A stretch of DNA of 64,000 bases from an uncultured Thermoanaerobaculia bacterium (GTDB taxonomy: Bacteria > Acidobacteriota > Thermoanaerobaculia > Multivoradales > Multivoraceae), in the NCBI GenBank assembly GCA_951813015.1, contig CATOTG010000004.1, forward strand, positions 62,001-126,000, written 5' to 3'. Numbering within the stretch: the stretch's first letter is position 1; each line of letters starts with the position of its first letter. The notes below the pieces were generated by a model, which was not told the DNA's origin, made no database searches, and worked only from the letters and a program-made list of their open reading frames with translations. A program made the translations under genes and the position numbers. Below, one piece after another: positions 185-58,979 of the stretch.

Positions 185-5055
<4,871 letters not shown>

Positions 5056-13114: not shown

Positions 13115-13346
13115 CGTTGCGCCATCGAGCACCTCAGCCCTCGCAGTCGCCGACGAGTTCGAAGCCACGCAGGTTTGCCCTGTACCGCGGGCGGGTCCCG
13201 CGGTGGCGAGAGGAGATGCGACCGCGGCCGGGAGCACGTTCCAGCCGGAAGGCGCTGTGGCGCCGGGAGCGGTCGGACACCCGTCCAGCAAGGCGCGCCC
13301 AGGGAGGTTCTCGCCGGGTTCGGCGTGCGTTTGCACGGGCTGTCGC

Positions 13347-18731: not shown

Positions 18732-18985
18732 AGTTCGTTGAACTCGCCAAGTTCGATTCCCGGCTGGAGGCCGAAGCGATCGGCCATGCCCTGGATCAGT
18801 ACGACATCCCGTTCCTGGTGCAGAGTGCCGGAGTCGGCATGTTCGGCATGGGGATGGTCGGGAAGTCGCCCGTTCCGGTATCCCTGTGCGTGCCGGACAA
18901 CCGGCTGGACCAGGTGAAGGAACTGCTGAGCTGCTTCGCCGAGCCGCTTGGGGAGGGCGAGGAGCCGCCGGGCGGCAACGACTGA
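18728..18985 (+). CDS. DUF2007-like small putative signal-transducing protein
   Basis: This protein has 85 residues and starts at GTG 18728, overlapping the MaoC gene stop by four bases, with GGAGGGAGAGG directly upstream. It opens [20 protein letters not shown] and continues [14 protein letters not shown]. This is the pattern of DUF2007 proteins (a ferredoxin-like small fold that begins with a residue-pair 'moving up to a paralogous chain' motif). A short acidic Gly-rich tail follows ([11 protein letters not shown]). Function is unknown for the family. Confidence 0.6.
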
Positions 18986-19010
18986 ACGCCTTCGGCGGGT
19001 GGTGGCCAGA

Positions 19011-19078
19011 ACCCGGGGGCGCTATCCGCGCCACCCGTGAACCAGTCCGAGCGCCCGCCATCGGGCGCACGGATGGGG
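19011..19078 (+). repeat. Dispersed twin-hairpin repeat, site A
   Basis: The copy contains cgcgccacccgtgaaccag followed by tccgagcgcccgcc and atcgggcgcacggatgg. It has two inverted repeats: GGGGGCGC-tatcc-GCGCCACCC and GCGCCCG-ccat-CGGGCGC. The same arrangement occurs at 58892-58962 (same orientation) and at 30262-30327 (reverse). It fills the gap between the DUF2007-like gene and the convergent phosphatase gene, so it may act as a bidirectional terminator. Confidence 0.7.
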
Positions 19079-19097
19079 GTCCGGGGCATCCAGTCTT

Positions 19098-19922
19098 CTA
19101 GTCGCCGAGCAGTTCCAGGACCGCGGGCAGCAGCGGCCTGGTGGTACTGAACGCCCGGTCGCAGTGGATCGTCTCGTTGCCGTCCCAGTCGCCGAAGTAG
19201 CCGCCGGCTTCCCGCAGGATGACCGGGAAGGGCCCGCAATCCCAGGCGCTCATCTGCGGATCGACCATGAGTTCCAGCCGGCCGGTGGCGACCAGGGCGT
19301 GGCCGTAGGCATCGGACCAGCCGACGCGGTAGGCGGTGTTCTCCATCATCCGTCTCCAGGCTCTGCGGTGCCGGGCGTCGACGAAGAGCGCCGGATCGCC
19401 GAAGGAGACGTATCCCTCGCTCAGGCTGTCCGTCGAGGCGGACCCGGGCGGGCTCGCCGTTCAGCGTGCAGCCGTGACCGGAGGCGGCCGCCACGGTCTC
19501 GCCGATGCCCGGGAAGTGGGCGACGCCTGCTTCGACCCGTCCGTTGACCTCCAGGCCGATCAGGATGCCGTAGAGCGGCACGCCGCGGACGAAGGAAGCG
19601 GGTTCCGTCGATCGGGTCCACGTACCAGCGGCGTTCGCCCGGCGCTTTCCGAGTCCGCCGCCTCGTCTGGCTGCCGGGCCTGCTCGCTGGGGTCCACGGA
19701 GCTCGTCCCGAACTCCTCGCCGACCACGATGTCGTTGGGGAACGTCTCGGCGATTCGCGAGCGGATCAGCTCCTCCGCGCCCCGGTCCGCCGCGGTGACC
19801 GGCGTCATGTCGCTCTTGAGTTCCGTCTCGACGCCTGGCCGGAAGAACTCGAGGGTCAACTGGCCGGCGATCCAGGCGGTCTCGACCGCGAAGTCGAGTT
19901 CGGCTTCGTATTGCGCTGCCAA
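19098..19922 (-). CDS. Inositol monophosphatase-family phosphatase (possibly histidinol-phosphatase type), frameshifted as read
   Basis: Metal-binding motifs of the IMPase family are all present: VVGEEFG (the Glu site), VDPIDGT (DPIDGT, seen across a break) and MSAWDCGPFPVILREAGG (the C-terminal W-D motif). The N-terminus reads AAQYEAELDFAVETAWIAGQ, then ELKSDMTPVTAADRGAEELI. Breaks fall near 19650, 19590, 19440 and 19350. TTG 19922 is preceded by GGGAG and precedes the conserved region directly; the in-frame ATG at 19997 lies in a repeat fragment and is less likely. The WDCGP and GGYFGDWDG pattern is closest to the HisN-type group, but substrate cannot be decided from sequence. Confidence 0.75.
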
Positions 19923-19978
19923 GGGTTGCTCCCGGACCTCTGCCGCCGGCGGCAGACGTCGCGCCGCATTCGCGCGGC

Positions 19979-20000
19979 GGTGCATCCCGTCCGGCATCGT
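19979..20000 (+). repeat. Short fragment of dispersed repeat flank (site F)
   Basis: tgcatcccgtccggcatcgt differs at one position from tgcatcccgcccggcatcgt in the full repeat at 30242-30261. It lies in the 180-nt gap between the phosphatase and MBL genes. No hairpin module is present. Confidence 0.4.
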
Positions 20001-20105
20001 CGCTGCCCGGTCGAATATAGCCCGACCTGTTCCCTCGTTGCGCCTCGCCGGACCGAGGGCGCTCTGGACCGCTTTCCATGCGCCGCGGACGTTGACCGCG
20101 GGTCG

Positions 20106-28076: not shown

Positions 28077-29162
28077 ATGGCCGGGAACACGTTCGGAAGC
28101 GCGCTGCGGCTCACCACGGCCGGCGAGAGCCACGGGCCGGGGTACGTCGGCATCCTCGACGGGATGCCGCCCGGTCTCGAGCTGTCGGAGGCCGATCTGC
28201 AGCCGGACCTCGACCGTCGCCGGCCTGGTCAGTCGCGATTGACAACCCAGCGGAACGAACCGGACAAGTGCCGCATCCTGTCCGGCGTCTTCGAAGGCAG
28301 GACGACCGGCACGCCGATCGCGTTCCTGATCGAGAACCGGGACCAGCGGCCGAGGGACTACAGCGAGATCAGGGACAAGTACCGTCCGGGCCACGCCGAC
28401 TACACGTTCGACGCGAAGTACGGCTTCCGCGACTATCGTGGCGGCGGCCGGTCCAGCGCCCGCGAGACCTCGGTGCGGGTGGCGGCGGCGGCGGTGGCGA
28501 AGAAGCTCCTGCGGGAGCGGTGGGGGGTGGGAATCGTCGGTTACGTGAAGAGCATCGGCGACATCGAGGGACGAATCGACGATCCGGCCGCCGTCACGTT
28601 GGATCAGGTCGAGGCGAACCCCGTGCGCTGCCCGGACCAGGAGGCCGCGGCGCGGATGGCGGAGCTGATCGAACGGATGCGTTCGCAGCGCGACTCGGTC
28701 GGCGGCATCTCGGAACTCGTCGCGACCGGCGTGCCGCCGGGCTGGGGCGAACCGGTGTTCGACAAGTTGAAGGCGGACCTGGGGAAGGCGCTGTTCAGCC
28801 TGCCGGCGGTCCTCGGCGTCGAGTACGGCGCCGGCTTCCGCGTCGCCCGCGCCCGCGGCAGCGAGAACAACGATCCGTTCGAAATGCGGGAAGGCAGCGT
28901 TTCCACCCGGAGCAACCGCCACGGCGGCATGTTGGGAGGTATCTCGTCGGGCCAGCCGATCGTTCTGCGCTGCGCGGTGAAACCGACCAGCAGCCTGCCG
29001 CAACCCCAGGACACGGTGACCCGGGCCGGCGAGCCGACAACGATCGCCACGAAGGGCCGGCATGACCCCTGCCTTCTGCCCCGCTTCGTGCCGATGGGCG
29101 AGGCGATGATCGCCCTGGTGCTGGCCGACCACGGCCTGCGCCAGGTCGCGGTCAGCGACTGA
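28077..29162 (+). CDS. aroC: Chorismate synthase
   Basis: This enzyme makes chorismate from 5-enolpyruvylshikimate 3-phosphate using reduced FMN, the last common step of aromatic synthesis. The 361-residue protein from ATG 28077 carries [18 protein letters not shown], the second signature [20 protein letters not shown], and [16 protein letters not shown] followed by ATKGRHDPC. The in-frame GTG at 28059 is less likely. All motifs and length are normal. Confidence 0.95.
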
Positions 29163-29207
29163 GACTCGTCGTGCCGGCGGGCGCAGGCCGGAGTCCCGGT
29201 GTAGCGG

Positions 29208-30133: not shown

Positions 30134-30239
30134 ACCGTTCCGTCCTCCTCTGCCAGTGGTCTCTGGAGCGCACTCGCTGCGTCGTTTGATCGCGTGACTG
30201 TAGCAGCCCGTGGCGAAGGTGACGTTGCACTCGAGCGGC

Positions 30240-30385
30240 CATGCATCCCGCCCGGCATCGTGCCATCCGTGCGCCCGCTGGCGGGCGCACGGACTGGTTC
30301 GCGGGTGGCGCGGAGCGCGCCACCCGGGCAAGCTCCTCGGTCGCCCTTGTTCCCGGGATTGAGGGCGGCCCCGATATGCTCCTTG
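30240..30385 (-). repeat. Dispersed repeat with twin hairpins and both flanks, site B (fullest copy)
   Basis: Outer flank catgcatcccgcccggcatc (30240-30259) is followed by gtgccatcc and the double hairpin at 30267-30325. The two stems are GTGCGCCCGC-tg-GCGGGCGCAC and GGGTGGCGCG-gag-CGCGCCACCC, both nearly or fully perfect 10-bp stems. The second flank, ctcctcggtcgcccttgttc and on (30332-30361), recurs at 53834-53863. It lies between the divergent dehydratase and rsmE genes, inside a 320-nt gap that has no other feature. Confidence 0.75.
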
Positions 30386-30456
30386 GTCGCGCCTTGCCGG
30401 AGGGCGCCTGACCGCTCTTGGTGCGACGCGTACTTCCGCCGCGGGCTGCTGGCAGC

Positions 30457-31182
30457 ATGAACCTGCTTCTGTTGGTGGACGAGGACCTCGATCGGGGCGC
30501 CGGCGCGGCCCGACGGGCGGTGGTGGGCGGCGAACGCCTCCGGCACGTCCGCAAGGTGCTGCGGTCGGCGGTCGGCGACACGCTGGCGGTGGGACGGCTG
30601 GGCGGCGGCATCGGCCGCGGGCGGATCGTCGAGATGAACCGGGAGCGCGTCGTGCTGGAGCCGGGACCACTGGACGGCGAGCCGCCGCTGCCGCTTCCGG
30701 TCACGCTGGTCCTGGCGTTGCCAAGGCCCAGGTTCGTGGGGCGCACGCTGCAGGCGGCTACGGCGATGGGCGTCAAACGGATCCTGCTCGTCCACACGGC
30801 CCGGGTGGAGAAGAGCTACTGGCAGAGCCCGGTGATGCGGCCGGAGGCGCTCCGTCGCCATCTGATGCTGGGATTGGCTCAGGCGCGGGACACGATGCTG
30901 CCGGAGATCGAGTGTCTGAGAGGACCGCGCGATCTGACGGAGTCTCTACCGGGCCTGGTTCGACGCCACGACGAGGTGCTGGTCGCCGACGCCGGGGGCG
31001 CCGAACCGTGCCCGCTGGGCATCGATGGACCGACCGCGCTGCTCGTCGGCCCCGAAGGCGGCCTGCTGGACGAGGAGCTCGATCGGCTCACGGCGGCTGG
31101 TGCGCGGTCGGTCAGTCTTGGTCCGCGGGCGCTCCGGGTGGAGCATGCCGTGGTGGCGCTGCTGTCGCGCCTGGCGATCTGA
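30457..31182 (+). CDS. rsmE: 16S rRNA (uracil1498-N3)-methyltransferase
   Basis: RsmE is a SPOUT-class methyltransferase. The 241-residue protein starts at ATG 30457 and has the N-terminal PUA-like domain (RAVVGGERLRHVRKVLRSAV, GDTLAVG). The knot domain contains QAATAMGVKRILLVHTARVE, WQSPVMRPEALRRHLMLGLAQ-type helix, and the SAM-binding LLVGPEGGLLDEELDRL. LGPRALRVEHAVVALLSRL closes the fold. All are typical. The direct repeat and pheT lie just downstream, convergent. Confidence 0.9.
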   Translation: MNLLLLVDEDLDRGAGAARRAVVGGERLRHVRKVLRSAVGDTLAVGRLGGGIGRGRIVEMNRERVVLEPGPLDGEPPLPLPVTLVLALPRPRFVGRTLQAATAMGVKRILLVHTARVEKSYWQSPVMRPEALRRHLMLGLAQARDTMLPEIECLRGPRDLTESLPGLVRRHDEVLVADAGGAEPCPLGIDGPTALLVGPEGGLLDEELDRLTAAGARSVSLGPRALRVEHAVVALLSRLAI

Positions 31183-39564: not shown

Positions 39565-40709
39565 GAGCGGCCGCCGGCCGCATCCTCCCGTCCGGTCTCG
39601 TCGTTGCTCTGGCGGCGGCCGCGATGGCTGGTTGCGGGCCCTCGGGAGGCGCGCCGGACATCCAGGCGCCGGTTGCTGACGCGGACTCGGGCGATCGATC
39701 GATCACGGTCGTTTCCTGGGGCGGGTCCTACGCCCGCGCCTGTGTCCTCGGCTACCACGAGTCGTTCACCGCGGAGACGGGCATCGAAGTGAACCTGGAG
39801 GACTACAACGGCGGCCTGGCGCAGATTCGCGCCCAGGTCGATGCCGGTTCCGTCCACTGGGACGTGGTCGATCTGGGAGTCTCCGAGTCTGTGACCGGCT
39901 GCGACGAGGGCGTCCTCGAAGTGATTGATCCGGCCGTCCTGCCGCCCGGGCCGAACGGCGAACCGGCGGCGGAGGACTTCCTGCCCGAGACGAACACCGA
40001 GTGCGGCGTGGGCACGCTGCTGTACTCGACGATCTACGCGTACAACCCGGAAACCCTGACCGGTCCGCCGCCGACGTCGATCGGCGACTTTTTCGACCTG
40101 GAGCGCTTTCCGGGGCGCCGGGGCATGCGGCGGGTCCCCGACGTGAACCTGGAGTTCGCGTTGCTGGCGGACGGTGTGCCGAATGAGCAGGTCTACGACC
40201 TGCTGTCGACTCCAGAGGGCCTCGATCGGGCGTTCCGCAAGCTGGACACGATCAAGGACGAGGTCGTCTGGTGGGAGGCCGGCGCCCAGCCGCCGCAACT
40301 GCTCGCCGACGGTGAAGTCGTCATGAGCACGGCCTACAACGGCAGGATCTTCAACGCCCAGGTTCTGGAGGGGCAGCCGTTCGAGATCGTCTGGGACGGC
40401 CAGGTGTTGGACCGCGGCCAGCTTGCGGTCGTTGCCGATACGCCTCGCCGCGAGGACGCCCTGCGGTTCATGAGCCATGCCGCACGGTCCGAGTCGATGG
40501 CGGGCGTTGCCGGCTACATCGCCTACAGCCCTGCGCGCCGCTCGGGGCAGGCGCTGATCGATCGGCAGGTGGAGACCGGCGCGGAGATGTGGCCCCACAT
40601 GCCGACGAACCCCGAGAACATGAAGAACTTCCTGATGGCCGACTGGGAGTGGTGGTCGGACCACAAGGACGAGATGCAGGAGCGGTTCGCCGCCTGGCTG
40701 GCGCGATGA
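39561..40709 (+). CDS. Polyamine-type ABC substrate-binding lipoprotein 1
   Basis: This 382-residue lipoprotein starts at GTG 39561, overlapping the PotA-like stop by GTGA, with GAGGAGG upstream. The signal peptide ends at the lipobox AMAGC (Cys25). The binding-protein fold shows SITVVSWGGSYARACVLGYH and VDAGSVHWDVVDLGVSESV, followed by TECGVGTLLYSTIYAYNPE and FFDLERFPGRRGMR. This pattern resembles PotD/PotF-type proteins. A near-twin gene follows directly. Confidence 0.88.
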   Translation: MRAAAGRILPSGLVVALAAAAMAGCGPSGGAPDIQAPVADADSGDRSITVVSWGGSYARACVLGYHESFTAETGIEVNLEDYNGGLAQIRAQVDAGSVHWDVVDLGVSESVTGCDEGVLEVIDPAVLPPGPNGEPAAEDFLPETNTECGVGTLLYSTIYAYNPETLTGPPPTSIGDFFDLERFPGRRGMRRVPDVNLEFALLADGVPNEQVYDLLSTPEGLDRAFRKLDTIKDEVVWWEAGAQPPQLLADGEVVMSTAYNGRIFNAQVLEGQPFEIVWDGQVLDRGQLAVVADTPRREDALRFMSHAARSESMAGVAGYIAYSPARRSGQALIDRQVETGAEMWPHMPTNPENMKNFLMADWEWWSDHKDEMQERFAAWLAR

Positions 40710-41875
40710 GTGTCCGAGGAGGACTCGCGTCGTCGTTGGGCTCCCGTACGGCGCGGCTCGGCGCCGCGGCGGCCTTGAGCACCGGTCTGATGGCCGGCTG
40801 CCGGCTCGCCGCGGATCCGCGTCCCGAAGGGATGGCGGCGGCTGCCCCCGAGTCGGAGGAGCGATCGATCACCGCGGTCTCGTACGGCGGTTCCTACGCG
40901 CGTGCCGTTGTTCGCGGCTACCACGAGTCCTTTACCGCCGAGAGCGGCGTCAGGGTGGACCTGGCGGACTTCATGGGCGGGCTCGCTCAGGTCCGTGCCC
41001 AGGTGGATTCCGGCTCGGTGTACTGGGACGTGGTGGATCTCAGCGTCGCGGAAGCGGTGAACGGCTGCGATGAGGGCGTCCTGGAGCTGATCGATTCGTC
41101 GATCCTGCCGCCCGGTCCGAACGGCGAACTGCCCGAGGACGACTTTCTTCCCGAGATGAACACCGAGTGCGGCGTGGGGAGCCTGCTGGGCTCCTCGATC
41201 TTCGCGTACAACCGGGAGGTCTTGACGGGACCGCCGCCGACCCGACTCTCCGACTTCTTCGATCTGGAGAGGTTCCCCGGCCGGCGCGGAATGAGGCGGT
41301 CGCCGCAGGCGAATCTGGAGTTCGCGATGATGGCGGACGGGGTTCCCAAGGATCGGCTCTATGACGAGCTGAGTACTCCGGAGGGCCTCGCGCGGGCGTT
41401 CCGCAAGCTGGACACGATCAAGGATCAGGTCGTCTGGTGGGAGACGCCCGCCCAGGCCCCGCAGTTGCTGGCGGACGGCGAGGTCCTGATGACCACGGCG
41501 GCGAACGGGCGGATCTTCAATGCTCAGGTGCTGGAGGGGCAGCCCTTCGTCATCGTCTGGGACGGCCAGGTGATGGATCGGGGCCAGCTCGCGATCGTTG
41601 CCGGTACGCCGCGGCTCGAGGACGCGATGCGGTTCCTGCGGCATGCCGCGACCGCCGAGTCGATGGCGGGCGTCGGCCGCCACATTGCCTACAGTCCGGC
41701 GCGCTACTCGGCCCAGGCGTTGATCGAACGGCACGCGGAAACCGGCGTCGAGATGTGGCCCCACATGCCGACGAATCCCGCGAACATGAAGAACCACCTG
41801 ATGGCCGACTGGCGGTGGTGGGCCGACCACGGCGACGAGATGCTGGAGCGTTTCACCGCCTGGCTGGCCCGGTGA
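40706..41875 (+). CDS. Polyamine-type ABC substrate-binding lipoprotein 2 (tandem paralogue)
   Basis: This 389-residue lipoprotein starts at ATG 40706, overlapping the previous stop (ATGA). Lipobox LMAGC (Cys32). It aligns with the preceding gene almost end to end, with clearly more than half the positions identical by eye: shared blocks include YGGSYARAVVRGYHESFTAE, CDEGVLELIDSSILPPGPNG, MWPHMPTNPANMKNHLMADW. A tandem duplication is therefore clear. One ABC operon with two binding proteins suggests different ligand preferences or dosage; the pocket residues were not compared in detail. Confidence 0.87.
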   Translation: MSVRGGLASSLGSRTARLGAAAALSTGLMAGCRLAADPRPEGMAAAAPESEERSITAVSYGGSYARAVVRGYHESFTAESGVRVDLADFMGGLAQVRAQVDSGSVYWDVVDLSVAEAVNGCDEGVLELIDSSILPPGPNGELPEDDFLPEMNTECGVGSLLGSSIFAYNREVLTGPPPTRLSDFFDLERFPGRRGMRRSPQANLEFAMMADGVPKDRLYDELSTPEGLARAFRKLDTIKDQVVWWETPAQAPQLLADGEVLMTTAANGRIFNAQVLEGQPFVIVWDGQVMDRGQLAIVAGTPRLEDAMRFLRHAATAESMAGVGRHIAYSPARYSAQALIERHAETGVEMWPHMPTNPANMKNHLMADWRWWADHGDEMLERFTAWLAR

Positions 41876-53504: not shown

Positions 53505-53804
53505 GTGTTGGCTCCTTCTTGCAGCGCGACAGGCCGCACTGTCGCGTGGCTGGGTTGCCGGGATCGCCCGCGATGCGGCAGACGCGGAAGCAGACTATAC
53601 GCCTACCCGGCACAACTCCGGTACGGATCGGGATCGACTCGCACGACGGGCCCTGTTCACGGTCGCTTCAGAACTGGAAGACACTCTGCGGGGACGGCGC
53701 GGAGCAGGTCCTGGAGATCCTCTGGCGTCACCTGCCGACGGGCGAGCGCCGGCACGACCCGGAGCTCTTGACCCGCACACGGAGCGGTTCCTGGTTCAAG
53801 CGGA

Positions 53805-53863
53805 CATGCATCCCGCCCGGCATCCTGCCAGTTGCTCCTCGGTTGCCCTTGTTCCCCGGATTG
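53805..53863 (+). repeat. Dispersed repeat lacking the double hairpin, site D
   Basis: catgcatcccgcccggcatc (53805-53824) and gctcctcggttgcccttgtt (53834-53853) match the two flanks of site B. Between them there are only about nine bases where site B has about 72. Thus this copy looks like the flanks without the twin-hairpin module. The surrounding 53505-54046 holds no gene I can support; QVTPEDLQDLLRAVPAECLP (minus) is an isolated protein-like stretch at about 53680-53740. Confidence 0.6.
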
Positions 53864-58795: not shown

Positions 58796-58891
58796 ACGGC
58801 GCCTGGCAGCCCGTCCCCGGAGAAGCGCAACGGAAGCGGGCGCGGCGCCAAGGTCCGGAGGCCGGCGCTTCGCGCCGAATGCCGGCCGGAA

Positions 58892-58962
58892 CCCGAGTGG
58901 CGCGATCCGCGCCCCCCGTGAACCAGTTCGAGCGCCCGTCGTCGGGCGCACGAATGGCAGGC
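58892..58962 (+). repeat. Dispersed twin-hairpin repeat, site C
   Basis: The copy contains gtggcgcgatccgcgcc, ccccgtgaaccagttcg and agcgcccgtcgtcgggcgca. Stems are GTGGCGCG-atc-CGCGCCcCC (one mismatch) and GCGCCCG-tcgt-CGGGCGC. Orientation is that of site A. It separates the HAD gene and the convergent actin-like gene, again in a convergent gap. Confidence 0.7.
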
Positions 58963-58979
58963 CGGCGCACCCGGGCCGC

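Follow-up and report, generated by a model that had tools for sequence, protein, structure and literature searches.

Non-autonomous elements derived from IS200/IS605 carry two terminal hairpins, produce no target duplication and use a single-stranded target. Some ERIC elements contain inserts at fixed places, and we know of no partner insertion sequence (IS) for this family. MITEPsy1 from Pseudomonas syringae generates a 4-nt duplication of CTAG or YTAA (PMC3189936), and IS1272, a member of the IS1182 family, replaces stem-loops without target duplication (PMC5678879). The BOX elements of Streptococcus pneumoniae are composite, with boxB arrays in tandem (PMC3049150), while the REPINs of the REP-RAYT system are short, dispersed double hairpins made of two inverted REPs (PMC3116915).

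The repeats described here were found in a window of 64,000 nt (C4:62001-126000) from a 4.32-Mb Thermoanaerobaculia genome of the Acidobacteriota (G000, a MAG that is 95.6% complete); named relatives with the same repeats point to this class. A sequence-only reading of this window had reported a site, B, with a central twin hairpin between two flanks, and a second site, D, with the same flanks and almost no hairpin. The recurrence of the flanks was borne out, with identity at 25 of 26 positions to the left (from 53805) and at 28 of 32 to the right (from 53833), while the best matches in the reversed window, the control for window searches, reached only 18/26 and 21/32, respectively. The flanks are the arms of a palindromic MITE inserting at CTAG-like sites, termed MITE-1, whose inverted ends were invisible to that reading. 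An alignment of 30 genome copies showed the flanks and the hairpin to be parts of a larger element bounded by the inverted ends CTAGCAGCCCGTGGCAGAAGTC.

MITE-1 is a near-perfect palindrome of 160 nt with 19-nt inverted ends (GCAGCCCGTGGCAGAAGTC); at this length it folds into a single long palindrome (z = -7.0). With up to three mismatches allowed, the inverted ends gave 117 matches in the 4.32-Mb genome versus 2 for the reversed pattern used as a control, and they pair at distances of about 160, 230 and 247-250 nt. The family thus combines the features of a MITE, namely a short length (160-250 nt), inverted ends, a high copy number (the 117 end matches) and no internal transposase. Copy counts derive from pattern searches, fetched stretches and listed ends, and constitute a partial census; site B used as a query against the whole of G000 returned at least 41 places with substantial matches, 40 of the 237 first-look candidates having been scored, so the family is larger than the places returned.

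Site B (30203-30449, + strand) is a complete MITE-1 of 247 nt, delimited by inverted ends at 30203-30221 (+) and 30431-30449 (-). Its apical loop harbors the twin-hairpin unit (30261-30328, +, 68 nt), recognized by its junctions and by covariation, and a second loop module, CCCTTG (30344-30366, +), which takes the place of the AATAT stretch present in the hairpin-less form. A MITE-1 profile search of the window recovered both arms of B together with three other sites: D (53796-53863, +; E = 5e-6), an internal fragment that also matches B directly, with the CCCTTG module and devoid of the hairpin and of either end; E (19942-20102, +; E = 5e-23); and F (13248-13312, -; E = 8e-6), the 3' part of an element. 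Site E had been taken for a flank piece only, which is wrong, since the profile and the alignment reveal a nearly full-length, although decayed, hairpin-less element of the AATAT form; F was likewise confirmed by alignment. Sites A (18980-19098, -; hairpins at about 19015-19075) and C (58851-58976, -; hairpins at about 58893-58959; E = 1e-35) were correctly read as twin hairpins without MITE-1 flanks: a second profile finds both, and they belong to another palindromic family, MITE-2. Neither profile, that of the B/D/E/F family or that of the A/C family, had a match in the reversed window. Two divergent genes flank site B (window 30135-30457), and 7 nt separate its end from the start codon of an RsmE-like gene, whose start region the element may affect.

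In 17 relatives the target of site B stands vacant and reads GACTGTARCAG..., whereas G000 reads GACTGTA[element]TGGCAGCATG. The reverse case was also found, one MITE-1 copy of the genome G009 being vacant in G000. Among the flanks of 96 complete MITE-1 elements, the peak is CTAG on both sides. Target duplications are frequently imperfect, and the two vacant sites that were examined closely accommodate a duplication of 2 bp (TA) no less well than one of 4 bp. In the local tree at site B, the filled genomes do not form one clade; an ancestral insertion followed by losses, two insertions at the same target, or exchange from one lineage to another are all possible histories. MITE-1 resembles MITEs of the MITEPsy1 type that target CTAG in its size range (about 100-160 nt for both), its inverted ends, the sharing of these ends with an IS and its CTAG-like sites (PMC3189936), but differs by being palindromic over its full length, by its exchangeable loop modules and by its IS1182-like partner. 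With ERIC it shares the architecture of a palindromic intergenic MITE, although the sequences are unrelated (reviewed in PMC10969869).

The candidate partner comes from the sister genome G019, which contains a 1493-nt element with ends matching those of MITE-1, flanked by 4-bp direct repeats (CTAT/CTAT, CTAC/CTAC). It encodes a transposase of 462 amino acids with DUF772 and DDE domains, whose best NCBIfam match is NF033551 (IS1182; E = 2.5e-51) at 175 bits against a curated cut-off of 270, so the element is named IS1182-like only. The transposase resembles that of the IS1182 family in type, with this match under the cut-off, whereas the direct repeats differ from the absence of target duplication in IS1272; our literature search found no paper on CTAG duplication by IS1182 elements. 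G000 retains only the last 296 nt of the element, as a 3' remnant, and in another Acidobacteriota MAG, MITE-1-type ends border the beginning of a reading frame similar to the start of such a transposase, the middle being unassembled. Because ends and target are shared, the IS1182-like element is likely the autonomous partner of MITE-1, as judged from sequence comparison, and MITE-1 is probably a small transposon copied by the enzyme of a larger one. Two other candidates were rejected. Firstly, IS630 fits the CTAG target, but the ends of the IS630 element (GTGTCATGTCAC) are unlike those of MITE-1. Secondly, a 2.13-kb span between two ends (C2:516027-518160) consists of two partial MITEs around other DNA in which no transposase was recognized. 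The IS630-type transposase gene in question, which has an internal stop codon, lies about 6 kb past the right end of the window (C4:131829-132278, locus L229), and its element also sits at CTAG.

The twin-hairpin unit measures about 68 nt (TGCCATCC...CACCCGGG) and is present in MITE-1, in a second MITE-1 subfamily and in MITE-2. The empty MITE-1 loop, CATCG-TTGCTCC, becomes CATCG[unit]TTGCTCC in the cleanest filled copies. Across the genus, MITE-2 is commonly found without the hairpin, its loops then being, for example, C-TTCTG, G-TTCCC or G-TTCTC; the filled counterparts are C[unit]TTCTG, G[unit]TTCCC and G[unit]TTCTC, respectively. The unit ends are thus identical in four loop contexts, one from MITE-1 and three from MITE-2, with zero loop bases lost or duplicated. 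The unit lies in the apical loops of both families. Its right junction varies (TT, TC, CAA, CTCA or CTAG), TT following the unit in the cleanest copies and other dinucleotides elsewhere. The presence of the unit also differs between genomes at single loci: at site B, G012 has MITE-1 without the unit while G000 and G019 have it, and the aroC-maoC gap (window about 29160-29205) contains a unit-bearing MITE-2 in G009, MITE-2 tips that lack the unit in other relatives, and neither MITE-2 nor the unit in G000. One array of G000 (C2:158114-158290, locus L091) comprises five tandem 33-nt hairpin-less MITE-2 tips and, after them, a tip that bears the twin hairpin.

With hairpin and second loop module each present or absent, all four combinations occur, and the hairpin is precisely placed in a second family as well. 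Flanks and hairpin can thus be separated, as had been proposed, the twin hairpin being a structured unit distinct from the MITE arms. MITE-1 resembles BOX in this exchange of inner modules between end modules, but BOX has tandem boxB arrays whereas a single hairpin unit is found here, also in another repeat family. That hairpin and flanks form one element, hairpin-less copies, including D, being deletions of it, is hardly tenable: apart from the TGCCAG of the unit kept at D, which this reading explains, the hairpin-less form is the sole full-length MITE-1 seen in G008, G009, G012 and the Gammaproteobacteria relatives, its loop (CATCGTTGCTCC) is scar-free, and the unit is present in MITE-2 too. 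This reading is refuted for the family and is the best one for site D alone.

The stems of the unit covary, with 9 compensating pairs where shuffling gave 3.3 and no shuffle out of 500 reached as many, which indicates that the fold of the twin hairpin is maintained. Such compensatory changes in both stems, together with one solo unit located close after a TGA (C4:226236), could reflect a host-selected RNA signal, a transcript end or stabilizer, riding on MITEs. We regard this as unlikely to be its main role, since Rfam gave no match within the window, no T run follows the unit in the copies read, and homogenization of the palindrome can also yield compensatory changes. The sequence-only reading had instead linked the twin hairpin to RAYT (TnpA_REP) transposases, which would make it a REPIN. 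The two are alike in being short, dispersed, high-copy double hairpins with mostly intergenic surroundings (PMC3116915), but two defining features of a REPIN are lacking. First, a Y1_Tnp (PF01797) search of the whole of G000, a 95.6% complete MAG, gave no match, while the same search was positive in 5 of 14 control genomes. Secondly, the two hairpins differ in sequence and follow each other in tandem, rather than being inverted copies of one REP. Movement by a RAYT is accordingly very doubtful.

Regarding the way the unit reached the tips, two routes deserve consideration. The unit may have entered the single-stranded tips of extruded palindromes, as IS200/IS605-derived elements target single-stranded DNA, which would account for its common boundaries, the absent target repeat and its tip position. 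Like those elements, it occurs without target duplication, as seen from filled and empty loops of MITE-1 and MITE-2, with a plausible single-stranded target; unlike for them, no fixed target tetranucleotide emerged, and no Y1 transposase was found in G000. For SbcCD, which might cut such tips, a search for SbcD returned matches below the cut-off only.

Alternatively, the hairpin may have entered MITE-1 by recombination, breaks or template switches at extruded tips copying the MITE-2 loop and gene conversion spreading it. This would account for the half-and-half chimeras at C4:199981 and C8:210282, in which the left arm is of MITE-2 type and the right arm of MITE-1 type, with the hairpin in between, for the variable right junction, and for the CCCTTG module, a second tip module that was never found free; at site B, moreover, both modules change together between G012 and G000/G019. 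The equal boundaries of the unit across several loop contexts and the retention of all empty-loop bases argue against it, although, given the microhomology flanking the unit (left CG, right TT), crossovers would produce identical junctions. As MITE-2 exists with and without the unit, its origin there would still require insertion. We consider recombination a serious contender, albeit at somewhat less than an even chance, and slightly favor an insertion of the unit's own over recombination between tips.

Taken as a whole, our preferred account, which we hold to be reasonably probable, is that MITE-1 is moved in trans by the IS1182-like transposase, that the hairpin unit would enter the tips and then be multiplied as a passenger when MITEs moved or recombined, and that site D would derive by deletion. 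The more specific proposition that the twin hairpin is a non-autonomous element of the single-strand type, entering the loops of two MITE families and multiplied by their transposases, is put forward tentatively; if true, the unit would be a parasite of MITEs that are themselves parasites of insertion sequences.

Site D is not a clean, uninserted copy. It alone reads GGCATCCTGCCAGTTGCTCC, in which TGCCAG (53826-53831, +), the six bases that open the unit, remains as a putative deletion scar, and both ends are gone; real hairpin-less copies occur elsewhere, as at E. Among the copies in fetched sequence, GGCATCNTGCCAGTTGCTCC occurs in D only, and a hairpin-bearing variant, TGCCAGTCCGTG..., exists. 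Because TGCCAG is retained, D is, from its sequence, probably a secondary deletion remnant of a hairpin-bearing copy. The earlier reading had set against separable modules the case of hairpin and flanks always found together and D a simple deletion; D does read as a deletion, but hairpin and flanks are not always together, hairpin-less copies being common. The stretch containing D is absent at the corresponding place in G019, and adjoining D is a 106-nt piece (53689-53794), conserved across the genus, with 94% identity to C2:387653-387759 and 76-94% in all relatives, so the surroundings are a rearranged, mosaic intergenic stretch. It is there that a hairpin-bearing MITE-1 would have lost both ends and most of its hairpin.

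Beyond these genomes, full-length MITE-1 relatives were found in a Gammaproteobacteria MAG (OX639965; 81-84% identity, 14 matches) and in another Acidobacteria MAG (73-81% identity, at least 40 matches). Other lineages (L137, L130, L148, L217, L189 and others), further Acidobacteriota among them, have these 19-nt ends around unrelated interiors, some of these elements being hairpins of 30-60 nt made of the ends only. Matches of the 19-mer in Mycobacterium were rejected as a repeat, as they look like one shared gene sequence. The 19-nt ends on varied interiors and the MITE-1 relatives in Gammaproteobacteria MAGs bear on the transfer of MITEs between lineages. The system offers a worked case of small bacterial repeats layered as IS, MITE and hairpin module. 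Vacant sites, chimeric intermediates and a likely partner transposase are all available, so that one can test whether palindromes expose their hairpin tips in cells as targets or as recombination points. For annotation, composite repeats should be divided into modules before they are counted. Two further repeats were observed in the window: a 300-nt direct repeat (39670-39969 and 40836-41135; the copies share 76% identity at a distance of 1166 nt), which probably reflects a gene duplication, and a degenerate short tandem repeat with 9-nt steps resembling GGCTTCGGC (3371-3623).
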